From positions 1-56,651 of IMG/VR virus record IMGVR_UViG_3300021519_000012: a stretch of 56,651 nt of DNA; one strand, written 5' to 3'. This DNA is from a virus. Under the pieces are notes generated by a model. It saw only the letters and a list, made by a program, of their open reading frames with translations, ran no database searches and was not told the DNA's origin. A program made the translations under genes and the position numbers. Numbering within the stretch: position 1 is the stretch's first letter; each line of letters starts with the position of its first letter. Shown here in pieces: positions 5,110-34,142 of this stretch.

Positions 5110-6420
5110 ATGCCAATTTTAACCTTTCCGTCAAATCCTTTAGTAGGGGATATCTATACACTAGGAACTAGATCCTGGCGTTGGAACGGCACCGCTTGGC
5201 AATTGCAAAGTAGTGTTCAAAGTTTAGATCCTTTTACTATTGTTCGAGGCATAGTCACTACTTCTACTAATTCTACAAGTACAAGCTCAGGCGGCCTGAT
5301 TGTATATGGTGGTGTAGGTATTGGCAAAGATTTATGGGCAACTCGAATTTATGCTACAGAAATTTATCAAGATGGTTCTCGAGTTGGTATTGTAGATCTC
5401 CAAGCTGGTACCGGAATACAGATTACAACAAGCGGTGTTGCTACTTACACTATTACAAATATAGGAGTGACCAGCCTAACTGGCACACCATATATTGGAG
5501 TTAGTTCAAACACCGGCAGCGTGACTTTAACCAACCTTGGCGTTCAAACGCTAACTGCCGGAACAGATACTGCGGTATCATCGAATACCGGTACAATTAC
5601 TGTTTGGAATACAAGTACCTTACAAAGCATAACTGATCGAGAATCAACAACCACCAACGCTATTCATATTATCAATACAACATCTGGTAATACTGGTACA
5701 GGCGCATTGATAGTAGACGGCGGAGTGTATGTTGGTGGCGATTTATTTGTCACGGGGCTATTATTTTCAGGGGGCGCACCGCTATTAACAACTTCAAGTT
5801 TTGCTAGGAGTTTTAATACCGGAACAGATATTTCTATTATTGCTGACCCAGGAACTGGCGCAGTTACGATTTCTAATACTTCTACATTACAATCAGTAAC
5901 ACTCCGAGGATCAACGACTACAAACCGCGTAACTTTTGCCAATACAGTTAATGCAACATCAACACAAACTGGTGCTATTTTAGTAAGGGGTGGTATTGGG
6001 GTAGGCAAAGACATATATGCAGCAGGTAATATAACAGCAAATAATGTAACTGCAAATAGTGTGGTTATTGGAAATTCATTATACAGTTACTTTACAAGCC
6101 CTGTGATTACTACCGGTGCTGCGGTAAATCTTGATGCATTTAATGTTAACGACTATAGAACAGCAAAATATTTGGTGCAGGTTGTTGATAATGGATTTAT
6201 ACCTAATTTGATACACAGTGCAGAATTGTTAGTAACACACGATCACGGCGGTTTTGGCACAACTGGATATATTGTTCAGTACGGAATTGTTACAAATATG
6301 GGCGAATTAGGGTCGTGGGACTCTGTATACAGTGGCGGACTGCTACAGCTACAGTTTACTCCTAATTATATACCAACAAGCATGGTAATTAAAGTTAACA
6401 GAACGGTCATGACGACCTAA
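5110..6420 (+). CDS. Tail fibre protein, 436 residues
   Basis: The protein begins with a compact module FPSNPLVGDIYTLGTRSWRW-NGTAW (residues 5-29), a common N-terminal element of fibre proteins in aquatic T4-like phages. GGVGIGKDL/GGVYVGGDL/GGIGVGKDI modules follow, separated by the recurring text TAGTDTAVSSNTGTITVWN. The last ~100 residues (YRTAKYLVQVVDNG...YGIVTNMGELGSWDSVY...LQFTPNY) form a discrete domain that is shared with the end of the next gene. Known from family context: such repeats are fibre shafts and the C-terminal domain is the tip candidate. No signal peptide. Promoter-like AATAAATA follows the stop. Confidence 0.8.
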   Translation: MPILTFPSNPLVGDIYTLGTRSWRWNGTAWQLQSSVQSLDPFTIVRGIVTTSTNSTSTSSGGLIVYGGVGIGKDLWATRIYATEIYQDGSRVGIVDLQAGTGIQITTSGVATYTITNIGVTSLTGTPYIGVSSNTGSVTLTNLGVQTLTAGTDTAVSSNTGTITVWNTSTLQSITDRESTTTNAIHIINTTSGNTGTGALIVDGGVYVGGDLFVTGLLFSGGAPLLTTSSFARSFNTGTDISIIADPGTGAVTISNTSTLQSVTLRGSTTTNRVTFANTVNATSTQTGAILVRGGIGVGKDIYAAGNITANNVTANSVVIGNSLYSYFTSPVITTGAAVNLDAFNVNDYRTAKYLVQVVDNGFIPNLIHSAELLVTHDHGGFGTTGYIVQYGIVTNMGELGSWDSVYSGGLLQLQFTPNYIPTSMVIKVNRTVMTT

Positions 6421-6432
6421 TATGGCAAAAGC

Positions 6433-6440
6433 AATAAATA
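6433..6440 (+). promoter_or_regulatory. T4-type late promoter box AATAAATA
   Basis: Seven of eight bases match the T4 late consensus TATAAATA. It lies in the short gap between two fibre genes, 31 nt before the ATG at 6472. An intervening CGGAGAG ribosome-binding site supports a leadered transcript. Confidence 0.55.
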
Positions 6441-6471
6441 TACTAGATTGAATCCACCGGAGAGCATTTAA

Positions 6472-9400
6472 ATGGCAACATCAAAAGACTTTATAGTCAA
6501 AAATGGCATACAAATATTAGGAGTTGGCACAACTGTCGCTACTAATACTGGCACAGGTGCGTTAATTGTAAGCGGTGGAGCAGGATTTAACGGCGATATA
6601 TTTGCAAAAAATATATACTCACAAAGTAGTCAGGTTATTACTACAGCTACGTTAGCAAACTATGGTGTTAGTTCTATTTCTGCAGGTACAGATACAGCGG
6701 TCAGCGCAAGTACTGGGTCTGTTGTAATATGGAATACCTCAACGCTACAATCGATTACTAGTCGTGGTGCAATAACTCCTAGCGCAATTACAATTACCAA
6801 TACTACAGATGCAACTACAACAGGCTCCGGTGCCTTGATTGTATCTGGTGGAGTTGGCGTTGGTCTAAATTTAATTGTTGGAAATACTATTGCAGCAGGA
6901 TTTAACAGTGCAAACTTTATTAAATTAACTGGTGCAGTTTCAACAAACGCAGTTACATTAAACGCTACAGGTACAGATGCTACTGTAAACATGAATATTG
7001 TTGCCAAAGGCAACGGTAGTGTAGTTGTTACAAGCACCGCTGCGGCTGCTGATACAGCTTCTGGAGCATTAATTGTAGCTGGTGGTGCAGGGATAGGCGG
7101 CAATTTATATGCTAAAAATATCTTTGACAACAACAATCGTGTACTAACAAACGTTGTTCTTAACAGTGGCCCCGGTATCAGCATTGCTAACTTAGGAACT
7201 GTAGGTTCGACTATTAGTTTCAGGGTTGATAACAGTGGTGTTACTGCAACTATTGGAACAACATACTTAGGCGTTAGTTCACAAACTGGTATTGTAACAT
7301 TTACCAACTTAGGTGTTCAAACAATTGTTGCTGGTACAGATACACAAATCGTATCAACTGGTATTAACGGTACTGGTACTGTTACAATTAATAGTACAGC
7401 TACATTACAAACTATCACCAATCGTGGTAGTACAACAAATAATCAAATTAACTTTACTAATCTAACCAATGCTACTACAGCGACTAACGGTGCGTTAGTA
7501 GTAAGCGGCGGTGTCGGAGTTGGCAAAGATGTAATGATTGGCGGTAGAATGAATGTCTACGGTCCTGTAACATTCTCTGACACTGTAACATTTAGTGGTA
7601 CAGCAACATACGTTCTAAGTACAAATACATATTACACAGATAATATTTTAGAAATTCACGTACCGCCAACAGGTGTATACGGTAATTGGACATACGATGA
7701 CGGCAAAGACATTGGGTTCCGTTTCCACTATTACAACAGAACAACTTCAACAGATACAAATGCGGCCCTTGTAATAGCCAACGACACACAAGTACTTGAA
7801 TGGTACGGCTCTGGCGCAGAAAGCACAGGCAGTACATTTACTTCTGCTACATACGGTGTATTTAAAACTGGTGTAATCCAGTTAATGAATACTGCAACCA
7901 ATGCTCAGAATGCAGTCTCTGGTGCATTACAAGTAGCTGGTGGTGTCGGGGTTGCGTTAACACAGTGGGTAGGCGGGACTGGTGGTACTGCTAGCAAAAC
8001 CGCTGTAAGTCAACAGGCATTTATTGTTAATGCCAACGGTTTAGGTGTTAACGGTGATTCATACTTTGCTAACAACATAGGTATTGGCGGCAGCGAAACA
8101 GTTGCAGGTAACCTAGGAGTAACAGGTGTAACAACGTCTGGTAGTTTATTAGTAACTAGTGGCTCAACCCTAAACGGTAACGTTGCAATTAATAGTAATT
8201 TAGGTGTTAGTGGACAGTTAAATGTAACAGGAACTTCAGTATTAAATGGTAACTCAACTGTTAACGGTACTCTTGGTGTTGCTGGCGCATTTAATGTAAC
8301 TGGTACAACTCTATTAGTTGGCATAACAACCATCACTAACACAACTATTGCAACATCAACAGCATCAGCGGCATTTACTGTAGCTGGCGGTGTTGGTATT
8401 GGTAAAAACCTATGGGTAGGTGGGGATGTATTTGTTGCCGGAACCATTAATGCAAGTATTACTGGTATTACTACTACTGCTACTAACATTGCTGCTGGTA
8501 CAGCTGGCCAAGTTCCTTATCAAACATCGCCTGGTGTAACTAATTTCTATGGTCCAGGAACTGCTGGTGACGTATTAATCAGCAACAGTACGGCTGGTCC
8601 AAGATATCAAAACACACTAACATTAGCTGGCACAGTACAAGCAGTATCAACAAATACAGGGGCATTCCAAGTAGTTGGCGGTGCCGCTGTTGGTAGTAAC
8701 TTGTTTGTTGGTAATAACTTTGTTGTATCAGGTACATCGATCCTTGTTGGCGCTACAACATTACAAGGTGCGGTAACTGCTAACTCAACACTAGGTGTGT
8801 TGGGTAACTTTAACGTAACTGGTACTACATTATTATCAGGCACTTCAGTATTCAACGGTGCTGCAACTGCTAACTCAACATTAGGAGTTGCTGGCGCATT
8901 AAACGTAACTGGTACAACAACATTAGTTGGTGGACTAAACGGTACAGCAGCAACATTATCAGGTAACTTAGGTGTAACTGGTACAACAATGCTAGTTGGC
9001 GGATTAAATGCTGCTGGTGCAACATTCTCCGGCAACATAGGTGTAACTGGAACCACATTATTAAGCGGTATTGCTACTGTTGGAAATACTACAAACTCAA
9101 CATCAACAACAACTGGTGCATTGGTAGTTAAAGGTGGCGCAGCTATTGGTGGGGATTTGTGGGTAGGTGGAAACATTTATCTAGATGGTGTTGGCCTAGA
9201 TACTGTTTATGGTACAACAGCTACATTCTCATATGCAAATATTACAGGAACAGGCGTTGCATTATATGTAACCAATAATGCAATAGTTAACGGTAACTTA
9301 ACTGCTACAACATTTAATGTAATCGGCCGTAGTACACTACAAGATGTTACTGCCGCAAACGTTACTGTTACAACATTAACAGTTACAGGCAACGAAGTAG

Positions 9401-9972
9401 TTAACGGTAACTTAGGCGTTGCTGGAACTTTCAGCGTAACAGGTACATCAGTACATGTAGGTAGTGCAGCATTTAACGGTAACGTAGGCATTTCTGCTAA
9501 CTTTAACGTAACAGGAACATCTGTATTAAATGGAAACGCTGCATTTAATACCAATGCAGGTATTGCTGGTAACTTAAACGTTACGGGTACTTCAGTATTA
9601 AGCAGTCCTGTAACTGTTCAATCAGTAAGTCAGTACAGTGCCTATGCAAGTCCAAATACAACAACAAGTGTTACATTAACATTAGACAGTTTTGTTGCAG
9701 TTACATACAGAACTGCAAAGTATGTATGTCAAGTAGTAGATAGCGGAGTAATTCCGAATAAAGTACAAGTAGAAGAATTTTTAGTGTTCCACGACAACTA
9801 TGGTTCAACAACCACAGCGTATATTATATCATACGGTATTGGAACAAACACAGGTGAGATGGGAACTTGGGATGCTGTATATGCTGGCGGCAGTGTATCG
9901 CTACAGTTTACACCAAATTATACTCCAGGATCACTAGTTGTTAAAACTGTAAGAACTTCAATCACTACATAA
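6472..9972 (+). CDS. Large tail fibre protein, 1166 residues
   Basis: The start ATG has a good ribosome-binding site (CGGAGAG, 7 nt upstream). The protein opens with ATSKDFIVKNGIQILGVGT, the same opening as the gene at 10055. It is a long series of GGVGIG/GGAGIGG modules, followed by a stretch of short repeats LGVTGTTLLSGTSVFNGAATANSTL (positions about 8080-9600) likely to form a beta-helical shaft. A distinct domain at residues about 370-470 (STNTYYTDNILEIH, DDGKDIGFRFHYY, VLEWYGSGAES) recurs in the gene at 13075. The C-terminal ~100 residues match the end of the preceding fibre. Likely a distal tail fibre. Host receptor unknown. Confidence 0.82.
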   Translation: MATSKDFIVKNGIQILGVGTTVATNTGTGALIVSGGAGFNGDIFAKNIYSQSSQVITTATLANYGVSSISAGTDTAVSASTGSVVIWNTSTLQSITSRGAITPSAITITNTTDATTTGSGALIVSGGVGVGLNLIVGNTIAAGFNSANFIKLTGAVSTNAVTLNATGTDATVNMNIVAKGNGSVVVTSTAAAADTASGALIVAGGAGIGGNLYAKNIFDNNNRVLTNVVLNSGPGISIANLGTVGSTISFRVDNSGVTATIGTTYLGVSSQTGIVTFTNLGVQTIVAGTDTQIVSTGINGTGTVTINSTATLQTITNRGSTTNNQINFTNLTNATTATNGALVVSGGVGVGKDVMIGGRMNVYGPVTFSDTVTFSGTATYVLSTNTYYTDNILEIHVPPTGVYGNWTYDDGKDIGFRFHYYNRTTSTDTNAALVIANDTQVLEWYGSGAESTGSTFTSATYGVFKTGVIQLMNTATNAQNAVSGALQVAGGVGVALTQWVGGTGGTASKTAVSQQAFIVNANGLGVNGDSYFANNIGIGGSETVAGNLGVTGVTTSGSLLVTSGSTLNGNVAINSNLGVSGQLNVTGTSVLNGNSTVNGTLGVAGAFNVTGTTLLVGITTITNTTIATSTASAAFTVAGGVGIGKNLWVGGDVFVAGTINASITGITTTATNIAAGTAGQVPYQTSPGVTNFYGPGTAGDVLISNSTAGPRYQNTLTLAGTVQAVSTNTGAFQVVGGAAVGSNLFVGNNFVVSGTSILVGATTLQGAVTANSTLGVLGNFNVTGTTLLSGTSVFNGAATANSTLGVAGALNVTGTTTLVGGLNGTAATLSGNLGVTGTTMLVGGLNAAGATFSGNIGVTGTTLLSGIATVGNTTNSTSTTTGALVVKGGAAIGGDLWVGGNIYLDGVGLDTVYGTTATFSYANITGTGVALYVTNNAIVNGNLTATTFNVIGRSTLQDVTAANVTVTTLTVTGNEVVNGNLGVAGTFSVTGTSVHVGSAAFNGNVGISANFNVTGTSVLNGNAAFNTNAGIAGNLNVTGTSVLSSPVTVQSVSQYSAYASPNTTTSVTLTLDSFVAVTYRTAKYVCQVVDSGVIPNKVQVEEFLVFHDNYGSTTTAYIISYGIGTNTGEMGTWDAVYAGGSVSLQFTPNYTPGSLVVKTVRTSITT

Positions 9973-9980
9973 AAAAGTAG

Positions 9981-9988
9981 GATAAGTA
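9981..9988 (+). promoter_or_regulatory. Variant late promoter box GATAAGTA
   Basis: Six of eight bases match TATAAATA, and the core is TAAGTA. The same 8-mer occurs at 17889 before another tail gene, and a related AATAAGTA occurs at 29503. It sits 66 nt before ATG 10055. Confidence 0.35.
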
Positions 9989-9993
9989 ATACG

Positions 9994-10012
9994 GGTGCGT
10001 ATGTTGCGCACC
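9994..10012 (+). other. Leader hairpin between fibre genes
   Basis: GGTGCG and CGCACC pair across a 7-base loop. No T-run follows, so this is not a standard terminator. It would lie in the 5' leader of the gene at 10055 if transcription starts at the GATAAGTA box. Role unknown. Confidence 0.35.
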
Positions 10013-10054
10013 ACACAATTTAAGTAACTTGCCGTTACGTGGAAAGGGAAACTA

Positions 10055-13000
10055 ATGGCGCTGACCAAAGACTTTATAGTCAAAAACGGTCTTGTTGTTT
10101 TAGCAGCAGGATCGGCACAATCAATAAGCACCACTACAGGTGCAATTGTTACCCCTGGCGGCGTCGGTATCGGCGGCAATGTTAATATCGGTAGTACAAT
10201 CAATAGCACAAATGCAACAAACGGCGCACTAACTGTAGCCGGTGGAGCAAGTGTTCAGCAAGATTTATGGGTTGGCGGAGATATATACTCTCGCGGTAAC
10301 CCTGTAATAACATCACAAACCCTCGGCGCATACGGAGTAAGTAGAATCACTGCCGGTGTAGGTATTCAGGTCAGTTCAAATACCGGCTCTGTTACTGTCA
10401 CCAACATCGGTGTTGTTAGCTTAGCCGGCTCCACATACTTAGGTATAAGCGCAGCAAGCGGCAGTAACATTACATTAACCAACTTAGGTGTTCAAACACT
10501 AACTGCTGGAACAGATACCGCAGTATCTTCAACTACTGGCACAATTACAGTTTGGAATACAAGTACCTTACAAAGCATTACTGCTAGAGGTGCTTCTACA
10601 ATTAATGCAATTAACATTAATAATCAAGCCGCATCAAATTCTACTAACTCGGGAGCATTGCAAGTCCTGGGCGGTGTTGGAGTAGGTGGTTCAATATATG
10701 CAGGAAATCTATTTGCAAACGGTGCTCAAGTATGGACCACTGCAACCTTAACAAACTTAGGGCAGTTATCTAACACCACTACACAATATCTAACATCATC
10801 AACACTTGGCCAATATGGGGTTAGCAGTATACAACCTGGCACAGGTATTACAGTCAGCACGTCAAGCGGAATAGTAACTATTACCAACGTTGGTGTTGTA
10901 AGTTTAGTTGGCAGTCAATATTTAGGTATTAGTGCCGCAAGTGGTACAAGTATTACATTAACAAACTTAGGTGTTCAAAGTCTAACAGCAGGCGCCGATA
11001 TTTCAGTATCAGCTAGCACTGGAACAATTACTGTTTCAGGTACAGGTACATTTCAAACTGTTACTAACCGCGGTTCAACAACTACTAACGCAATTCGTGT
11101 TAATAATACAACTAGTGTAAATTCAACAGCAACTGGTGCTCTACAAGTAGTAGGCGGAGTTGGTATTGGTGGCGGACTATTTGTTGGTGGCACTATTACT
11201 GCTACCAGTTTGACTATTGGCGGCTATCCAATATCAACTTCATCTGTAATGACTGCTTCGTATTTTGGCAGTCCTTTAGGAACATTTACAAATTTAAACT
11301 TTGCCACAGGTACTACAGCAACTATTGTTGGCGGATCAGTAACACTTCAATCTGTTGGCGCAAGTGTAACAGTAAGCGACACTCCCCCAACTGGCCCAGC
11401 ACCGGGTAACTTATGGTGGGATAGCACTGTTGGTATTTTACGTGTTTATTATGCTGACGGAACCAGTAACCAGTGGGTTGATGCATTTCCGATTATGGTT
11501 GGTCCAACTGGGCCACAAGGCGCAACCGGAGTATTCACCGGCACAATCTCAACACAATTAGGACTCACAAATAATACAGCAAGCACCTCTACTAATACTG
11601 GTGCATTAACTGTTGGCGGTGGCGTTGGTATTGGCGGCGATTTATATGTTGGCGGCACTATTGTCGCTAATCAACTAACAATCCAATACACAACCGTTAC
11701 TACAAATTTAGTAACTACTGATGATATTATTATTACAACTAATAATACTTCAGCAACATCAACAACTACTGGTGCTTTAAGAATTGCTGGCGGTGCTGGA
11801 ATTGGCGGCGCACTATATGTTGGGGCAACTTCGTATGTTGCCGGCTCACAGATTATTACAACTGCAACAATTGGTAGTTTTGCAGTTACGTCAAGCGGGT
11901 ATGCAACAACATCAAGTTTAGCTGCTTATGCAACAACATCCTCTCTGGCTGCCTACGCAACTACATCAAGTATTGCATCAACTGCAACAAGTGCGGCAAT
12001 TGCCTATTCGATTGTAAACACGTCAACTTTACAAGTAGGATTTGCTGTTAATGCATTTACAGCAACAAGTGCGGCAGTTGCTTACTCACTAGTAGGTTCA
12101 GGATCACTTACTGTTGGTTCAGCAACAACCGCTACAAACATTGCAGGTGGAACTGCTGGCATGATTCACATGCAGAGCACCACTGGAACAACGTCATTTA
12201 TTAATGCTGGTACTACTGGGCAGTTATTACAGAGTCAAGGATCAACAGCATCATTTGTATCTACTACAACATTACAGGTTGGTAATGCGTTATTGGCAGT
12301 TAGTGCAGGCTATGCAACTACATCAAGTTTAGCTTCATATGCAACAACTGCAAGTTTAGCTTCATACGCAACTACATCAAGCATTGCGTCAACTGCAACC
12401 AGTGCAGCAGTGGCTTATTCAATAGTAAACACATCAACATTACAAGTTGGATTTGCTGTTAATCAAGCAGGCGGTTCAGTAAATGCCACCACTGGTCAGT
12501 TTAGCGGTATTACCACAGTTACCAACGTTACCGCAAGTACAACAACAGCCACTGGCGCACTACAAGTAGCGGGCGGGGTTGGTATTGGTAAAAATATCAA
12601 CGTCGGGCCAGGCGCAACCAATAGAAGTATTGCCAACGCCAATGCATACGGTAATATGTTTGTTGCCGCAGGCGACTCACAATACGTAAATTATATTTTA
12701 GGCATTAAGACAACTACCAATGCCGCTACAGGACTGACAACAGATCATAATACCGCTGGTGCAGCCAATCAAATTATTCTTCCTAACAGTTCAGCATACG
12801 GATTTAAAGCCTATGTAACTGCTAGAGATTCAGTTAATCAGTGGATGGGTGTTTGGGAAATTAGCGGAGGTATACGCAGGGGCGCAACCGCAGCATCAAC
12901 TACACTAGTCGGCACACCAGTAGTGACTAGAATAGCATACGATACAACAGCAACAACTTGGGCAGCAACCGTTGCTGCAGATACTACTAATGGAGGTTTA

Positions 13001-25631: not shown

Positions 25632-26297
25632 TTAATCTTGGAATTTTAATTCTCCTTTGATAGCAATTAATTTACAGCGACCACCGTGCCATCTAAGGTA
25701 ATTTGATTGTCCCTTTCCAGTTTTATTGCAGTGAGGGCATATAAACAAAGGCATGTTTGCCTTTCTAATCTCGCTAAATTTAATTCGCTCTTCAACAGTC
25801 CATCTTTCAATTGCAGACTGCTGCATTTTTTTCTTAGATTCTTCTGTATGAGGTTTTCTAGGGTATGGAGTTTTTTTATGTCCTTTTGATTTGGCTTTTT
25901 TCTCTGCACTCCATTGCTTACCAAAATTATAATTTTGACTTCCAGTTCTTGTATTTTTTGTAGTAAGTGACCGCATAAGTTTTATCTGATTGTACATTCG
26001 TGATGTTATTTTATATCGATTTTGTCCGATACCCTGTACTTGGGTAATATATAGTGATTTCCACATTTTACTTTTTGCATCGCCTACTACCATTTTAGTA
26101 AGTAGCCAGTGACAAATAAAATGCTCTCGTGCAGTTAATTTAACTAGATTAGGTTGCTTATTACTACCACCTAAACTTTTAGGAATAATATGATGTTTTT
26201 CAGTATAGCCAGAAATATCTCGATTTTGAGCATTAAAAATAATATTAAAATACCACTTGGTATATTTGTTCTGTAGGAAGTCAAAGGTCTCTAGCAT
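25632..26297 (-). CDS. HNH homing endonuclease
   Basis: A 221-residue protein with an HNH core EKHHIIPKSLGGSNK...NLVKLTAREHFICHWLL (residues about 33-66), including the paired histidines and the downstream histidine typical of phage free-standing homing endonucleases. A basic middle (AEKKAKSKGHKK) and a C-terminal zinc-ribbon-like motif C-P-H-C...H-x3-C (residues about 184-205) are likely DNA-binding. It lies between gp14 and gp13, genes that are adjacent in T4, and its end contains the ribosome-binding site of gp14. This suggests insertion at the gp13/gp14 junction. A CATAAATA box lies 7 nt before its ATG. Confidence 0.85.
   Translation of the reverse strand: MLETFDFLQNKYTKWYFNIIFNAQNRDISGYTEKHHIIPKSLGGSNKQPNLVKLTAREHFICHWLLTKMVVGDAKSKMWKSLYITQVQGIGQNRYKITSRMYNQIKLMRSLTTKNTRTGSQNYNFGKQWSAEKKAKSKGHKKTPYPRKPHTEESKKKMQQSAIERWTVEERIKFSEIRKANMPLFICPHCNKTGKGQSNYLRWHGGRCKLIAIKGELKFQD
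25642..25658 (-). promoter_or_regulatory. Ribosome-binding site with probable ATT start for gp14
   Basis: On the minus strand AAAGGAG (25658-25652) is followed by 7 bases and then ATT (25644-25642) in the gp14 frame. No ATG, GTG or TTG is available at a suitable distance. The site lies inside the last codons of the upstream HNH gene. ATT is a rare start codon, so the assignment is inferential. Confidence 0.5.
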
Positions 26298-27144: not shown

Positions 27145-27780
27145 ATGATCATCGGCATTTGCGGCTTCATCGGCAGTGGTAAAGATACTATTGCAGACTA
27201 CCTAGTCAATTTCAACGGTTTTAGAAGAGAAAGTTTTGCTAACTCATTAAAAGATGCAGTAGCTTACGTATTTGGTTGGGACCGCACAATGCTAGAAGGA
27301 CGAACTAAGGCTGCTCGTGAATGGCGTGAACAAGTTGATCCATGGTGGGCAGAACGATTAAACATGCCACACCTAACTCCACGTTGGGTCCTACAGTATT
27401 GGGGAACTGAAGTGTGCCGCAAGAGCTTTCATGACGATATTTGGATTGCTAGTTTAGAAAATAAACTTCGCACATCAAAAGACGATATTGTTATCAGTGA
27501 CTGCCGTTTTCCTAACGAAATTAAATCAATCAAAGCCGCAGGCGGCATCGTAATCCGTGTTGTTCGTGGCCCAGAACCTGAATGGTATAGTATTGCAAAG
27601 AATGCCAACAAAGGCGCACCTATTGCTCAAGAATTACTTAAAGAATTTGGTGTACATGCTAGTGAAACTGCGTGGGTTGGAACCGACTTTGATGCGGTTT
27701 TAGATAACAACGGTACTATTGATGAGCTGTTTCAGCAGATCAAAACCATCGCAACTCCCGAACTTACTCCTGCTGTTTAA
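27145..27780 (+). CDS. 1: Deoxynucleoside monophosphate kinase (T4 gp1-like)
   Basis: A 211-residue P-loop kinase. GFIGSGKDT (residues 7-15) is the Walker A loop; WREQVDPWWAERLNM, PRWVLQYWGTEVCR and SDCRFPNEIKSIKAAGG follow in the order seen in T4 gp1. The enzyme phosphorylates dNMPs to dNDPs for phage DNA synthesis in the cytoplasm. Close in length to T4 gp1 (241). The ATG at 27145 has CAGGAG upstream. It stands between gp13 and the solute-binding-protein cassette, preceded by a possible sigma70 promoter and followed by a late promoter box at its own stop codon. Confidence 0.9.
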   Translation: MIIGICGFIGSGKDTIADYLVNFNGFRRESFANSLKDAVAYVFGWDRTMLEGRTKAAREWREQVDPWWAERLNMPHLTPRWVLQYWGTEVCRKSFHDDIWIASLENKLRTSKDDIVISDCRFPNEIKSIKAAGGIVIRVVRGPEPEWYSIAKNANKGAPIAQELLKEFGVHASETAWVGTDFDAVLDNNGTIDELFQQIKTIATPELTPAV

Positions 27781-27786
27781 TAAATA
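27779..27786 (+). promoter_or_regulatory. Late promoter box AATAAATA
   Basis: Seven of eight bases match the T4 late box. It overlaps the stop of the dNMP kinase gene and lies 23 nt before ATG 27810, with a GGAG ribosome-binding site between, so the DctP-like gene is likely expressed late. Confidence 0.55.
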
Positions 27787-27809
27787 TCATTATATAAACA
27801 GGAGTTGTT

Positions 27810-28772
27810 ATGAAACAGATTACCCTAAATTGGGTTTTAGCCCACGAACCATACCATGTCTTTATCAAGGCAGCTAAAAGTTTTGCCGCAGAAGTTGCCG
27901 CCGAAACCAACGGCGAATACAAAATTAATGTTATTAGCCTAGACGAGTGGAACGATCTTGCTAAACACAATCTAACAACTCACACAACTGACCGTAATAA
28001 AATCCTCGACTTGGTTGACAACGGCACTATTGACCTAGCAACAGTATACGCTAGCGCACTGGGCGGCATCGATAGTGATATGTATTCTTTAGCAATGCCA
28101 TTCTTGTTTAACGATCACGACGAAGCATCTAATGTTATTGATGGTAAAATTGGTCAGCACATGTTGGCTAAAATTGCTGACAAGAGCAACATCCGTGGCC
28201 TAGTGTTTACATACTCTGGCGGTTTTAAAATTATTCCAAGTAAAAATGTAATTGAAACTCTAGAAGATTTTTATCGTTTAAATTTAAGTTGCAGTAATAA
28301 TCCTGTTTCAATCGGTACATTAAATGCAGTTGGAGCAAATCCAGTTCCAACATTCATTGAAGATATTACTAAAAAATTAGTTAGCGGAGAAATTGTTGGC
28401 GGAGAAACAACATATACTCGTTACTTGATCCTCGAACAAGACAAGCACACAAACTACATTAACGACACAGAACACAGTTTATTCCTAACAAGTTTAATTA
28501 TTAACAAACAACTATGGTTGTCATTAGGCGAAAAGGTACAACAAGTATTTGCCGCAGCCGCTATGAGAGCCGCAAAGATTGAGCGTGAAGAAAGTTTGGC
28601 AGACAATGTTGTTGTTGAAGAACAAGCAAGACGTCAAGGTATTTCTACTATTAGAATGACCGCTAAAGAAAAAGCTAAAATGGTTGCAGCCACTAAAGGT
28701 CTGTATTCTAGTTTAGATTCTTATTTTAGTCCAGGCTTATTAAATCAAATTGTTGATGGAAAAAAAGGTTAA
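27810..28772 (+). CDS. TRAP transporter DctP-like solute-binding protein without signal peptide
   Basis: The 320-residue sequence follows the DctP fold pattern: an opening beta strand (TLNWVLAHEPYHVFIKAAKSFAAEV), NGEYKINV, DLATVYASALGG, then SLAMPFLFNDHDEASNVIDG, RGLVFTYSGGFKII, and AVGANPVPTF. DctP proteins are periplasmic receptors that deliver organic acids to TRAP transporters. Two oddities: there is no signal peptide (the start is fixed by GGAG 5 nt upstream), and where the family has the ligand-clamping Arg in L-K-G-L-K-x-R this protein reads FYRLNLSCSNN, so the Arg seems lost by my manual alignment. No TRAP membrane subunits are nearby. A late promoter box precedes it. It may therefore bind something else, in the cytoplasm or virion. 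Confidence 0.75.
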   Translation: MKQITLNWVLAHEPYHVFIKAAKSFAAEVAAETNGEYKINVISLDEWNDLAKHNLTTHTTDRNKILDLVDNGTIDLATVYASALGGIDSDMYSLAMPFLFNDHDEASNVIDGKIGQHMLAKIADKSNIRGLVFTYSGGFKIIPSKNVIETLEDFYRLNLSCSNNPVSIGTLNAVGANPVPTFIEDITKKLVSGEIVGGETTYTRYLILEQDKHTNYINDTEHSLFLTSLIINKQLWLSLGEKVQQVFAAAAMRAAKIEREESLADNVVVEEQARRQGISTIRMTAKEKAKMVAATKGLYSSLDSYFSPGLLNQIVDGKKG

Positions 28773-29502
28773 TCTTTCAGTACCGTTAAGCGAATTTGAT
28801 AGTCTATGGGAATGGACCAAGTCTAGAAGCACATACCATTTTGACAAGTGGCGCACAGATGCTCCGGGGTCTACCTATAAGACCCTAGGGCGTTTTGAAA
28901 ACACTTGGTCGCACTTAATACAAGAAATTAAAGAAAAATCTTTTCCTACCAACTGGGGTAATATTACCACATCCGGTGGTGGGGTACAAAAACCTGTTAG
29001 TTATGATAAGCGTGGTCGTGACATTGCCCAAGGCGGTGGCGACATTGATAAAATACAACTGACTAATCTTGCAGAAAATCCTTGGCAGTATCCTGAATTT
29101 AAAAAAATAATTGACTATTTTCATTTAGAACCAATAGAAGCAAGGTTTCACGTTCAACTAACAGGACAGATGTTTACTGTTCACGTTGATCCAAATCATC
29201 ATAGATTTATGCCACCCGGCTCAAATCCATTGGGTCCGTATGACTATGATCCAATGGACCAAGTGCGTATTACTATTATGTTAGAAGATTGGGAGCCTGG
29301 ACAGTTTATGATTTACGGTAACACAGTATATCAACAATGGCGAGCAGGTGATTTCCATATGCACGATTGGCCTAACATTCCCCATGCAACAGCCAATGCT
29401 AGTCAGCACAGTCGTATTACCCTTCAAATAACCGGTATGCGTACCGCAGAAACAAACAAAGTTATTGGCGGTCCAAATAACTTTGCACCGCACAATCCTT
29501 AA
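28756..29502 (+). CDS. 2-oxoglutarate/Fe(II)-type oxygenase-like protein
   Basis: A 248-residue protein from ATG 28756, overlapping the DctP-like gene by 17 nt (upstream in-frame TTG codons are less likely). The C-terminal half reads as a double-stranded beta-helix: H143-V-D145 (FTVHVDPNHH), a distal His210 (WPNIPHATAN) and Arg220 (HSRITLQITG), matching the HxD...H metal triad and 2-oxoglutarate-binding Arg. WRAGDFHMHDW is typical of the strand before the second His. The N-terminal ~90 residues are Trp-rich and unfamiliar. Substrate unknown: related folds hydroxylate proteins, nucleobases or small molecules. Its place between two solute-binding-protein genes suggests a shared accessory cassette. 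Confidence 0.65.
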   Translation: MEKKVNLSVPLSEFDSLWEWTKSRSTYHFDKWRTDAPGSTYKTLGRFENTWSHLIQEIKEKSFPTNWGNITTSGGGVQKPVSYDKRGRDIAQGGGDIDKIQLTNLAENPWQYPEFKKIIDYFHLEPIEARFHVQLTGQMFTVHVDPNHHRFMPPGSNPLGPYDYDPMDQVRITIMLEDWEPGQFMIYGNTVYQQWRAGDFHMHDWPNIPHATANASQHSRITLQITGMRTAETNKVIGGPNNFAPHNP

Positions 29503-29510
29503 AATAAGTA
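29503..29510 (+). promoter_or_regulatory. Variant late promoter box AATAAGTA
   Basis: Core TAAGTA as at 9981 and 17889. It ends 8 nt before ATG 29519 of the TctC-like gene, with no ribosome-binding site between. Confidence 0.35.
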
Positions 29511-29518
29511 GTGTTACT

Positions 29519-30424
29519 ATGAAAAAACTATTATCTATACTTCTCATGACATGTTCACTTTCAGCATTTGCTGGGCAAGTGGTTCCTATTGTTTGGCCAT
29601 TCTCTCCAGGTGCCAATCAAGTAAATTTTATTAGAGCGATTGCTGATGAAGCAAATAAACAACAAACGAAATATACCTTTGTGTTTGATAATAAAACCGG
29701 CGCAGGTGGTGCGGTAGCAGCACAGCATGTGCTAGCTCAACAAAATCTAACTATTTTAAGCAGCTCTGGAAGTTTTTATATCCGCCCACAGTTTTACCCT
29801 AAAGAAAGTCATAAGTTAGAAGATTTTAAACCTGTGCTTATTGAATGTATTGGACAACCATATGCGGTTACTAGTGTAAAATTCAAAACACTTGACGAAC
29901 TGCGTGGACAAGAACGAGTTACTATCGGAGCAAATCTGGGTAGTCTAACCGAAGCTATTGCTAGAGAACTGCAACTAGTATTGCCTGGCGTTAAAGTAGA
30001 TGTTGTACCATTTTCTACAGGAACGCAACAACCTAAAATGCAAATGCTTGCTGGGGTAATTGATCTTAATGTGGATCTACCAGATGGTGCAAGACAGTGG
30101 ATTGAAGAAGGCAAGATGTTTGTGATTGGATCTAGCGGAACTATTGATTATCCTAACTGGCGCACATTTAGTAGTCAGGGTGTTAAAGGATTTGGGGGAT
30201 TAGTCAGCAACTACGGCATGTATGTTAAAGGGACGACTGATCCTAAAACAGTAGAAGAATTGCATACAATATTGCGCAAAGCCGCTAAAGCCAGCCCAAT
30301 GTTACAAGAATACTATGCTAGAGATTACTGCACTGGTGTAGATTATGATCTTAAGAAAACCAACGAAGTATATGCCAAGTGGTTGAAGTATTGGCCTGAA
30401 AAACTCAAGCCTTTAGAAAACTAA
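29519..30424 (+). CDS. Exported TctC/Bug-family solute-binding protein
   Basis: A 301-residue protein with a clear Sec signal peptide, MKKLLSILLMTCSLSAFA with cleavage expected after AFA (residue 18). The mature part fits the tripartite tricarboxylate transporter receptor family: VPIVWPFSPGANQVNFIRAI (compare the PF-x-PGG-x-x-D-x-x-AR signature), DNKTGAGGAVAAQHV, VTIGANLGSLTEAIAREL, QMLAGVIDLNVD and GVKGFGG. Family members bind carboxylates in the periplasm. Length is normal. Start ATG 29519 is fixed by the signal peptide; farther-upstream codons would lie inside the previous gene. No TctA/TctB genes are seen here. Such receptors are very numerous in betaproteobacteria, which hints at host. 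It converges on the minus-strand zinc/HNH gene. Confidence 0.85.
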   Translation: MKKLLSILLMTCSLSAFAGQVVPIVWPFSPGANQVNFIRAIADEANKQQTKYTFVFDNKTGAGGAVAAQHVLAQQNLTILSSSGSFYIRPQFYPKESHKLEDFKPVLIECIGQPYAVTSVKFKTLDELRGQERVTIGANLGSLTEAIARELQLVLPGVKVDVVPFSTGTQQPKMQMLAGVIDLNVDLPDGARQWIEEGKMFVIGSSGTIDYPNWRTFSSQGVKGFGGLVSNYGMYVKGTTDPKTVEELHTILRKAAKASPMLQEYYARDYCTGVDYDLKKTNEVYAKWLKYWPEKLKPLEN

Positions 30425-30756
30425 AAATCAGGGGTTAAGTCGCCCTGTTTCCATGCTAGTTTAAGGATGTGTAAAATCCGCTGACAATTAGCACATACTG
30501 TTTTTAAATTAGTCATACTACAATTCGTTGGATTTCCGTCAATATAATAGACATTGAATTGTTCCTTATATTGACTGGTGTGCCCGCAACGATCACATTT
30601 AAGCTTCATCTTGTATCCGGCTTTTTGCCAACGAGGCTTTCCGTCATTCCTGTTACGAGCACAATGATCACACTGACTACGATAAAAAGTTTTATCATCT
30701 CGTCGATAGTTAATAGCTACCGGCCTACTTCCACAAGTTTTGCATAAACTTCTCAT
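30421..30756 (-). CDS. Small zinc-binding HNH-type protein
   Basis: A 111-residue protein with three cysteine pairs: C-K-T-C, C-D-H-C and C-D-R-C-G, then YYIDGNPTNCSMTNLKTVCANCQRILH, an HNH-like core (DGN...N...NLk-x-C-x-x-C). Similar small proteins occur scattered in T4-like phages and are probably HNH nucleases or zinc-finger DNA-binding proteins. The terminal histidine is present but catalytic competence is uncertain. Its end overlaps the stop of the convergent TctC-like gene. The ATG at 30756 has an AAAAGGG site and a TAAATA box about 30 nt upstream. Confidence 0.65.
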   Translation of the reverse strand: MRSLCKTCGSRPVAINYRRDDKTFYRSQCDHCARNRNDGKPRWQKAGYKMKLKCDRCGHTSQYKEQFNVYYIDGNPTNCSMTNLKTVCANCQRILHILKLAWKQGDLTPDF

Positions 30757-30857: not shown

Positions 30858-33800
30858 ATGGCAACCACACTTCAATCACCAGGCGTTTCAGTTTCAATTA
30901 TTAATGAGAGCTTCTATACACCAGCTGCTCCAGGAACTGTACCACTAATTTTTGTTACTTCAGCGGACAATAAAACTAATCCTTCAGGGGTTACTGCTGT
31001 AGGTACAGACCCAGCTAACGCAGGTAAAGTATACCTCGTTACAAGTCAAAGAGATCTTACAGATACTTTTGGCACTCCACTATTCTACACAGATGCTAGT
31101 GGCAATCCAATTCACGGTGGGGAGCTAAACGAATACGGTTTACAAGCCGCCTACTCACTACTAGGTGTTAGTTCAGCTGCTTACTTGGTAAGAGCTCCTA
31201 TCGATCTAGCTAGCCTAACAGCCGCTTCAAGTGCTCCAGCAGGAACTCCATCTAATGGATCATACTGGTTAGACACTGCAGATACTACATACGGTATTTT
31301 TGAGTGGAGCCAATCATTAGGCACATTTACAAACAAAACACCATTGGTTATTACTGATGCAACTGCATCATTAAACACAACTGACGGATTAACACCAAAA
31401 GCAAGCGTTGGCCTAGTTGGTCAATATTGTGTAGTTTCTACTACAGACAATGAAAACGCAGTTTGGTATAAAAACAGCGATGCTAACTGGGTAGCAGTTG
31501 GTACAACAGTTGAAGCAAACTTTACAAATAACAGTTTTAATAACACATTTGTAAGCACAACATGGGGAACAAGTTTCCCAACTGTTACTGGCTCAACAGC
31601 ACCAGCATCAATTACCGCTGGCGGAACTATTACTGTTAACGGTCACGATGTAGTTGTTACTACTGGGGTTGTTGGCGATATTGCAGAGTCAATTAACTCA
31701 GCATTGCATGTATACGGTATCGGTGCAAAAGTTGTTAAGGGTGCATTGGCTATCTATGCTGACTCACATTCTTCTAGTAGCACTAGCGTTACTATTACAA
31801 GTTCTGCTACAACACTAATGACACAAGTTGGTCTTACAAACGGAACATATTCTGCTCCAACAGTATTTGTTGGTCCGCATACACAATATCCTAACTTTGG
31901 TGCAGAGCCAACAGGTAGCGTCTACATGAAGACTACAAGTCCTAATAGTGGTGCTAACTGGGTAGTTAAACAGTGGTCTGATAGCTCTAATGCATTCAAT
32001 ACTGTTAAAGCTCCAGTGTATTCAGATGCATCAGCGGCAACATATAGCCTAGACAAAACAGGCGGCGGCGCAAATATTCCAGTAGGCACATTGTTTATTG
32101 AAAGTAACTTTAATCATGGTAATGAAACTTCAGGTCCTGTATTAGCTAACTTTAAATTACATCGTCGTGTTGCAGTATCTCCTACAACTATTACGAGTAT
32201 TGCTCATGCTGATACTGTGGCGATTGCTTCTACTTTAACTATGACAATTTCTACTACTGCTCCAGGCAGCACAGGGTATGGAGCCGGCGTAACTATTTCA
32301 GTAGTTGGCGATCTAAGTAACCTAGTGCAAGAAATTAATAATTCAGGCATTGACAATTTAAGTGCTTCAACTAATGCAGATGGTTCTATCAGTATTGTTC
32401 ACGCAACTGGTGGAGATATCAAGTTTGTCGATGCTGACAATTTGTTATCTACAGCAGGATTTACTGCAGGAACTACATCTAACTTCTACGAGTTAGGTAT
32501 GTTTGAACCAGACGGTGCAAACTTTAGAGCAAGTAACTGGGCTCCATTGACATTCACAGCATCAGCTGTTGCTCCAAGCACAACTCCTGCAAATGGCCAA
32601 CTATGGTATAGTTCAATTGTTGACCAAGTTGACATTATGGTTCATGACGGAAATAACTGGGTTGGTTATGCTAACGCATTCCCTGGCTCAGATCCAACAG
32701 GTCCTATCGTTGCAGCTTCTAAGCCAACAACACAAAGCGATGGCGTAACACCACTAGTAACTGGCGACATTTGGGTTAGCACTGCTAACATCGAACGTTA
32801 CGGTCAAGATATCTATGTTTACAATGGCAATTTGCTATTGTGGGAACTACAAGATACTACAGATCAAACAAGTCCTACAGGCTGGTTGTTCCACGATGCA
32901 CGTTGGGCAACAAGCGGTCAAGCAACAGATGCAGCTACAATCGTAGAACTTCGTTCAAGCGATTACGTTGATCCTGATGCTCCTGATCCAGCAGAATATC
33001 CACGTGGTATGCGTCTATGGAACCTACGTCGTTCAGGTTTCAACGTTAAGAAATATGTAACAGACTATATCAACATCAATGCTAACAACGGTATTAACAT
33101 CCGTGTTACCGGCGATCAAATGGCTGACTACAATCCAGATCGTTGGGTTTCAGTAAGTCCTAATAACGCAAACGGTTCAGGCACATTTGGTCGTCATGCA
33201 CAGCGTAGCTTTACTGTTGCAGGTCTAAAATCAACAATTGATGCTAACCAAGCAATCCGCGATACAGATACATTGACATTTAACTTGATTGCAACTCCTG
33301 GTTATCCAGAAGCAATCCAGAACATGATCAGCTTAAACGTTGACCGTGGTTTAACAGCATTTGTAATCGGTGACACAAGCATGCGTCTACAGCCAACAGG
33401 CACAGCATTGCAAGCATACGGCCTAAACAGCAACGGTGCATTTGACAATGGTGATGACGGTCTTGTTTCATACAATGAATACATGGCTGCATTCTATCCA
33501 AGCGGTTACACAAACGATTTGGCAGGCAACTATATTGTTGTTCCACCAAGCCACATGATGTTACGCACTATTGCTGTAAGTGACCAGAAGAGTTATCCAT
33601 GGTTTGCTCCAGCAGGTATCCGTCGTGGTGTTGTTGACAATGCTACATCAGTTGGTTATATTGCTGACGGTGAGTTTAAATCAACTGCATTGCCAGTAGG
33701 TCTACGTGATGTAATGGCTAGTGTTAAGATTAATCCTATTGCAACTATTACAGGTGCTGGTATTATTAACTTTGGTCAATATACTCGTGCTAACGCAGCT

Positions 33801-34142
33801 TCAGCATTAGATCGTATTAACGTAGCTCGTTTAGTATGTCACTTACGTCGTCAATTAGATATCCTTGCTCGTCCATTCTTGTTTGAACCAAATGACAAGA
33901 TTACACGCAACGAAATCAAAAATGCCGTTCAAAAGTTGTTGCTTGAACTAGTCGGTCAACGTGCTTTGTATGACTTCATTGTAGTTTGTGATGAATCAAA
34001 TAATACACCAGCCCGTGTTGATCGTTCAGAACTATGGGTAGACGTTGCTATTGAGCCAGTTAAGGCCGTAGAATTCATCTACATCCCAGTGCGTTTAGTA
34101 AACACTGGCGCTATTAAAGCTGGAACATATACCCTAGCATAA
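30858..34142 (+). CDS. 18: Tail sheath protein (gp18-like), enlarged
   Basis: The start TTLQSPGVSVSIINESFYTP is the sheath N-terminal signature. The last ~330 residues are the conserved sheath core: YPWFAPAGIRRG, NPIATITGAGIINFGQYT, RINVARLVCHLRRQL, PFLFEPND, VVCDESNNTPARVDRSELWV and KAVEFIYIPVRL. The sheath contracts to drive the tube through the host envelope. At 1094 residues it is far longer than T4 gp18 (659). The excess lies in the middle (residues about 120-700) and includes repeated G-x-x-W-x-D elements (NGSYWLDTADTTYGIFEW, NGQLWYSSIVDQVDIMVHDG, GDIWVSTANIERYGQDIYVY) like those in the fibre genes. These are presumably surface domains. Confidence 0.93.
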   Translation: MATTLQSPGVSVSIINESFYTPAAPGTVPLIFVTSADNKTNPSGVTAVGTDPANAGKVYLVTSQRDLTDTFGTPLFYTDASGNPIHGGELNEYGLQAAYSLLGVSSAAYLVRAPIDLASLTAASSAPAGTPSNGSYWLDTADTTYGIFEWSQSLGTFTNKTPLVITDATASLNTTDGLTPKASVGLVGQYCVVSTTDNENAVWYKNSDANWVAVGTTVEANFTNNSFNNTFVSTTWGTSFPTVTGSTAPASITAGGTITVNGHDVVVTTGVVGDIAESINSALHVYGIGAKVVKGALAIYADSHSSSSTSVTITSSATTLMTQVGLTNGTYSAPTVFVGPHTQYPNFGAEPTGSVYMKTTSPNSGANWVVKQWSDSSNAFNTVKAPVYSDASAATYSLDKTGGGANIPVGTLFIESNFNHGNETSGPVLANFKLHRRVAVSPTTITSIAHADTVAIASTLTMTISTTAPGSTGYGAGVTISVVGDLSNLVQEINNSGIDNLSASTNADGSISIVHATGGDIKFVDADNLLSTAGFTAGTTSNFYELGMFEPDGANFRASNWAPLTFTASAVAPSTTPANGQLWYSSIVDQVDIMVHDGNNWVGYANAFPGSDPTGPIVAASKPTTQSDGVTPLVTGDIWVSTANIERYGQDIYVYNGNLLLWELQDTTDQTSPTGWLFHDARWATSGQATDAATIVELRSSDYVDPDAPDPAEYPRGMRLWNLRRSGFNVKKYVTDYININANNGINIRVTGDQMADYNPDRWVSVSPNNANGSGTFGRHAQRSFTVAGLKSTIDANQAIRDTDTLTFNLIATPGYPEAIQNMISLNVDRGLTAFVIGDTSMRLQPTGTALQAYGLNSNGAFDNGDDGLVSYNEYMAAFYPSGYTNDLAGNYIVVPPSHMMLRTIAVSDQKSYPWFAPAGIRRGVVDNATSVGYIADGEFKSTALPVGLRDVMASVKINPIATITGAGIINFGQYTRANAASALDRINVARLVCHLRRQLDILARPFLFEPNDKITRNEIKNAVQKLLLELVGQRALYDFIVVCDESNNTPARVDRSELWVDVAIEPVKAVEFIYIPVRLVNTGAIKAGTYTLA

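Follow-up and report, generated by a model that had tools for sequence, protein, structure and literature searches.

A phage gene cassette pairing a DctP-fold protein that lacks a signal peptide with a putative oxygenase and an exported TctC-type binding protein

Three intact genes lie between the dNMP kinase and tail sheath genes of an IMG/VR virus record of 56,651 bases (hereafter the window, meaning the whole stretch of DNA that was analysed), a T4-like phage fragment whose gene set of this type comprises sheath, tube, neck, terminase, SSB, helicase and primase. They encode a DctP-fold protein without a signal peptide (P; 27810–28772, plus strand, 320 aa), a 2OG-Fe(II) oxygenase-like protein (O; 28756–29502, plus strand, 248 aa) and a solute-binding protein of the TctC/Bug family with an N-terminal signal peptide (T; 29519–30424, plus strand, 301 aa). 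Our best explanation, to which we give about an even chance, is that the three genes are a metabolic operon gained by horizontal transfer that serves to capture and modify a compound, and neither a lone transporter nor a structural part of the virion. The evidence laid out below supports a view of the three genes as transferable metabolic cargo, with T acting outside and P and O inside the cytosol.

How is the cassette organised and expressed? Its left border is a gp1-like dNMP kinase (27145–27780, plus strand; PHROG_139, 1.4e-53) and its right border a gp18-like tail sheath gene (30858–34142, plus strand; PHROG_10581, 7.7e-206). The last 17 nt of P are also the first 17 nt of O, and 16 nt separate O from T. 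The hexamer TAAATA is rare on the plus strand of the record (19 copies against about 41 expected under a first-order model), and 12 of the 19 copies have a gene start no more than 70 nt downstream. One late-type box, AATAAATATCATT (27779–27791, plus strand), assigned from the placement of its TAAATA, stands 31 nt upstream of P and is the sole such box of the cassette; the sheath gene also has one TAAATA, and ATAAATA precedes P in four further loci (L003, L004, L005 and L008). By analogy with T4, the box upstream of P may serve as a late promoter, and the cassette would then be expressed late. The sequence-only reading of this DNA had given each binding-protein gene a late-type box of its own. 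A search upstream of T returned no TAAATA, and a separate late box for this gene was consequently rejected. Since P and O overlap, O and T lie 16 nt apart and T has no TAAATA, a single operon read from one late-type promoter is more likely, and is the simplest reading of the layout.

The assignment of P to the DctP family is firm, with a Pfam match far over the cut-off (PF03480, 1.8e-39) and a best match of 4e-21 in a PDB sequence search. Its AF2 model, built on 49 phage sequences (pLDDT 94.8), retrieves TRAP receptors in Foldseek at TM 0.85–0.86, with the isethionate receptor IseP at TM 0.85, in keeping with the DctP-like label that the gene had been given earlier. What P does not have is a signal peptide. 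In the window, the previous in-frame stop lies just 4 codons before the ATG, which is itself preceded by AGGAG. A signal peptide is likewise absent from all phage P proteins with a placeable start: the placed starts fall 5–8 aa ahead of WVLAHE, the motif opening the mature fold, and a Shine-Dalgarno-like sequence is usually present at their start codons. Lacking a signal peptide, P cannot be a Sec-exported periplasmic receptor and, judged by its N-terminus, is not a periplasmic TRAP receptor. Both binding proteins had previously been placed in the periplasm; this location stands for T, with its export signal, and falls for P. In a phylogenetic tree, the signal-less P family forms a supported clade of its own (100/98) on a long stem, although long outgroup branches leave the root and the number of signal losses uncertain. 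Inside this clade, signal peptides are confined to Bacteriovorax-type bacterial copies. In L124, L137, L138, L141 and L153 the P gene appears as two overlapping ORFs, possibly reflecting frameshifts or sequencing errors.

In the TRAP receptor SiaP, R147 binds carboxylate and is required for high affinity, and the position is Arg in 96.8% of the family (PMC4646407). As set by sequence alignment rather than from a ligand-bound structure, its equivalent is Ser160 in window P, Ser or Gly across the window clade and Arg in 39 of the 49 phage P sequences, while the equivalent of SiaP R127 in window P is Lys140. According to this alignment, the carboxylate-binding arginine is lost in the window clade. 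Either O or a ferritin-like di-iron protein (F) adjoins P in the aligned members of that clade. A coupling between loss of the arginine and an adjacent oxygenase was nevertheless rejected as statistical evidence, because a single clade amounts to one event and because in L163 an F gene adjoins a P that retains the Arg.

Searches with O against Pfam, PHROGs, NCBIfam and PDB sequences gave no match; a 2OG protein of a Synechococcus phage gave one weak local match. An AF2 model based on 31 sequences (pLDDT 88.7) matches proline hydroxylases, P4H and AspH (best E 2.1e-6, at a modest TM of 0.46), in line with a double-stranded beta-helix fold. Across the same 31 sequences, H143 and D145 of the HxD...H...R signature are invariant, and H210 and R220 are conserved at 90% or more. 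The conservation of these four residues makes it very probable that O is a functional 2OG-Fe(II) oxygenase, and together with the fold matches it agrees with the enzyme class originally proposed.

T, in turn, matches TctC over the curated Pfam cut-off (PF03401, 2.4e-11) and BugD at 2.3e-8, carries an NKTGAGG motif and begins with a signal peptide recognised by inspection (MKKLLSILLMTCSLSAFA, then GQ). Its identity to the phage copies first aligned is 21–54%, and nearly all T relatives have a similarly textbook signal peptide. An exported TctC/Bug-like protein, as read from the letters alone, is thereby upheld, and profile searches do return the DctP and TctC families expected of the two binding proteins. 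The membrane subunits that such receptors work with had been described as missing, and neither TctA nor DctM was found in this record, a fragment of 56.7 kb. In bacteria, the orphan state of TctC proteins is common, and orphan copies adjoin catabolic enzymes (PMC5812351).

Is the cassette an integral part of this region of the phage genome? Sixty-seven relatives that share the virion genes of the window have a gap of 79–457 bp between dNMP kinase and sheath, against 3,077 bp here, and P and T are absent from all 67 of these sheath relatives showing the junction. The cassette was therefore inserted at a site that is otherwise empty. Its right edge is occupied by a small HNH-endonuclease-like ORF in convergent orientation to T (30421–30756, minus strand; weak PHROG HNH matches, 7.7e-4), for which the relatives' gap would have no room, and a homing-endonuclease gene is located at 25632–26297 (minus strand). 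Together, these two genes suggest an endonuclease-assisted insertion, with the HNH-like ORF as its possible agent. In a second phage, a gene of the homing-endonuclease or HNH-like type is also found near the cassette (L003:2116–2772, minus strand).

Comparison of closely related contigs adds to this picture. L002 is identical to the window at the cassette, whereas L001 has an identical P downstream of a different dNMP kinase: between L001:4053–4706 and window 27145–27780 the kinases are 80% identical, as against 98% for the neck protein and 100% for P, which points to recombination beside the cassette. The dN/dS of P (0.08–0.13) indicates purifying selection and hence a cassette that is not decaying; the value for T, 0.26, stands on a near-saturated dS, and O is saturated at synonymous sites. 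The sequence-only reading had regarded absence of the trio from relatives, if coupled to decay, as speaking against its proposal. The trio is indeed absent at this site from the sheath relatives, yet without decay, and the module recurs elsewhere, in unrelated phages.

How widely is the module distributed? Relatives of P were found on at least 132 viral contigs, of T at a minimum of 71 loci and of O at 44 or more, these counts being lower bounds from pattern-based scans in which many contigs are near-copies. Within the window clade, P-O-T order (L002, L005, L006, L017, L018, L020 and L021) occurs alongside P-F-T order (L003, L004 and L019). Other phages have A-P-T or T-T-P, where A denotes a PP-loop ATPase, and several copies of T are present in some. 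Cassette orders recur in phages that otherwise lack homology to the genes of the window: the flanks of L003–L005 differ from the window's with the exception of endonuclease-type genes, and L006 has one helicase gene in common with it. For a count of linked genes, we took loci found through P alone and clustered them at 90% identity with 3-kb flanks, leaving 30 non-redundant loci. A PP-loop ATPase occurs within 3 kb of P in 20 of these 30, T in 13, O in six and F in four; at 80 control loci selected by their sheath gene, PP-loop ATPase, T and F are each absent and O occurs once. As the contigs are related to each other, these counts stand without a p-value. At 8 of the 30 loci none of the linked genes lies within 3 kb, so P may also act alone.

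One PP-loop family showed weak motif-level matches in the PDB (GMP synthase, Asn synthetase and QueC), and a second gave nothing meaningful there. Among isolated phages, relatives of T or of the tested PP-loop family were not found, and matches to P and TctA reached at most about 30% identity, in short or bacterial-looking records. In about 45 marine loci, a 91-aa DUF2061 membrane protein adjoins a signal-less DctP (e.g. L076:1465–1716, cluster 7).

Some phages encode what the window does not. TctA was present in 4 and DctM in 3 of the 40 records searched. On the 244-kb viral contig L073, positions 5245–12406 hold two signal-less P genes that flank genes for DctQ (by inspection), DctM and an exported DctP, and a Rieske-type oxygenase gene follows this block. 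In L071:12549–18875, the tail sheath is immediately preceded by a terminase, a fused permease of the DctM type and a TAXI/NMT1-type receptor. L080 has TctB, TctA and TctC together with a TauD-like gene (partly by inspection), and in L028 P is accompanied by TctA and a small gene resembling TctC. In a marine set, TctC-TctA pairs adjoin relatives of O, the order in L164–L195 (e.g. L167:7420–10738) being methyltransferase-like, TctC, TctA, 2OG oxygenase and P-loop/sulfotransferase-like; SUP05 viral contigs with tctA and 2OG-FeII oxygenase genes were already reported in 2014 (PMC4164917).

What, then, could the cassette do? In the scheme we favour, T, exported to the periplasm, would capture an organic acid, or a solute related to one, and pass it on to membrane proteins of the TctAB type; these would come from the host or, in relatives that encode them, from the phage. 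P would stay in the cytosol, its DctP fold repurposed for small-molecule binding, with the window-clade proteins holding their ligand without the usual arginine-carboxylate salt bridge, and O would hydroxylate the captured compound or a product thereof. The ligand, the reaction, a hand-over among P, O and T and the cooperation of T with host TctAB are parts of this scheme that we infer. It is favoured by the whole TctBAC or DctQM-plus-P transporters of some related phages, and supported by the recurrence of the four cassette orders in unrelated phages, by the linkage of PP-loop, T and oxygenase genes to P at the 30 loci relative to the 80 controls, by the contrast between signal-less phage P and the signal peptide of nearly all T, and by the empty site in the 67 relatives along with the low dN/dS of P. 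Orphan TctC proteins in bacteria (PMC5812351) and the lone binding protein PstS carried by phages (PMC3037559) lend it further support. More tentatively, and short of an even chance, the widespread virus-borne cytosolic DctP-fold family might provide the core, ligand-binding or catalytic, of a modular pathway for small molecules that uses PP-loop ATPases and interchangeable iron oxygenases and is fed by TctC/TTT or TRAP systems. If true, phages bring a compound into the infected cell and alter its chemistry. That more than a simple supply of receptors is at work had been suspected from the start, and this suspicion is upheld.

A biosynthetic or modifying role for P is a serious rival to uptake, even if we hold it rather unlikely. 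P would here be a ligand carrier or binding-fold enzyme in a biosynthetic or peptide-modifying pathway with a PP-loop ATPase and oxygenases, T would serve a separate import, and the phage would make or decorate a metabolite. This role draws on cellular genomes: signal-less P lies beside a PP-loop protein and 2OG-like/desaturase genes in the MAG contigs L197 and L211, where a similar partner of about 265 aa also adjoins it (by inspection), near an Asn-synthase-like protein (PF00733, 6e-24 in L200) and ABC-transporter genes in L200 and L201, and next to an MNIO of the MbnB/TglH family (L207:1841–2740; PF05114, 3.3e-77), a RiPP-modifying family, in a Myxococcales MAG. None of these bacterial loci has a TctC, a context more in line with biosynthesis than with uptake, and some phage loci add a Trp halogenase, methyltransferase-like or Rieske-type gene. 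Yet the window itself lacks a PP-loop gene, a search around phage P for a conserved small precursor ORF gave nothing convincing, and the bacterial examples are few, all of them MAG contigs. Beside the Asn-synthase-like genes and signal-less DctP of L200 and L201 are proteins with SSSSSYSGGGG-type tails (L200:10335–10958 and L201:4755–5954, both minus strand), possibly modified peptide tails.

The sponge, exclusion and virion readings account for most of the probability beyond capture and modification and the biosynthetic role. As a sponge, P would sequester a host small molecule in the cytosol (e.g. a defence signal or regulator) and T would do likewise in the periplasm. A binding-protein fold without an export signal, a remodelled pocket and the eight P loci with no linked gene nearby would all fit, but the persistent linkage to oxygenases and PP-loop ATPases and the whole transporters of some phages make this improbable, and we know of no defence signal bound by a DctP fold. 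Alternatively, T might alter host uptake or block superinfection by competing with host Bug proteins for TctAB, as its export, its orphan state, its multiple copies in some phages and its co-expression with late genes, provided the operon is read as proposed, could indicate. Such a role would leave the signal-less P and the oxygenase unexplained, and the full TctBAC or DctQM sets that some phages carry suggest functional transport; we deem it a slim prospect. Slimmer still is a virion role for P, T or both, raised initially and prompted by the position of the cassette between gp1-like and sheath genes, and by a P in L071 that also lies between neck-type genes and terminase/sheath. Here, the 67 neck and sheath relatives have the same virion genes without the cassette, the cassette sits among unrelated genes in other phages, and the signal peptide of T is of the cleavable type.

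A binding protein that a phage carries on its own is usually interpreted as supplying nutrients, and automatic annotation of P as a TRAP subunit would lead to the wrong ecological reading, namely phage control of C4-dicarboxylate uptake. What we see instead is a signal-less P family that is found across uncultivated aquatic phages and linked with ATPases and oxygenases. The fold family of each protein is already known, as are similarly named database entries from uncultured Caudovirales ('DctP/TeaA' and 'Bordetella uptake protein'), which have the same folds as P and T. Beyond the notes on tctA and 2OG genes, we found in the open-licence PMC literature no description of a phage DctP/TctC module or of the missing signal peptide, nor of a signal-less phage DctP clade, its linkage to PP-loop ATPases and oxygenases or its pairing with an exported TctC.

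Compared to TRAP receptors such as SiaP and IseP (PF03480), P has the same fold and keeps many core motifs, but the phage proteins lack the signal peptide, are adjoined by DctQM only in L073 and form a separate supported clade on a long stem, and those of the window clade have Ser or Gly at a site that is Arg in nearly the whole family (PMC4646407). T has its family match, signal peptide, NKTGAGG motif and orphan state in common with TctC/Bug proteins, orphan Bug included (PF03401), and differs in being phage-encoded and paired with a cytosolic DctP-fold protein. O belongs to the same enzyme class as the 2OG-Fe(II) oxygenases that cyanophages and SUP05 viruses encode, and SUP05 viral contigs are reported to carry tctA too (PMC4164917); unlike these enzymes, however, it is linked to P and T and goes undetected by Pfam, PHROGs and NCBIfam. 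Cyanophage PstS, finally, is likewise a phage-borne single substrate-binding subunit (PMC3037559), yet where PstS supplies phosphate through the periplasm, the cassette described here combines two binding-fold proteins, one of them predicted to be cytosolic, with an oxygenase in what is probably one operon.
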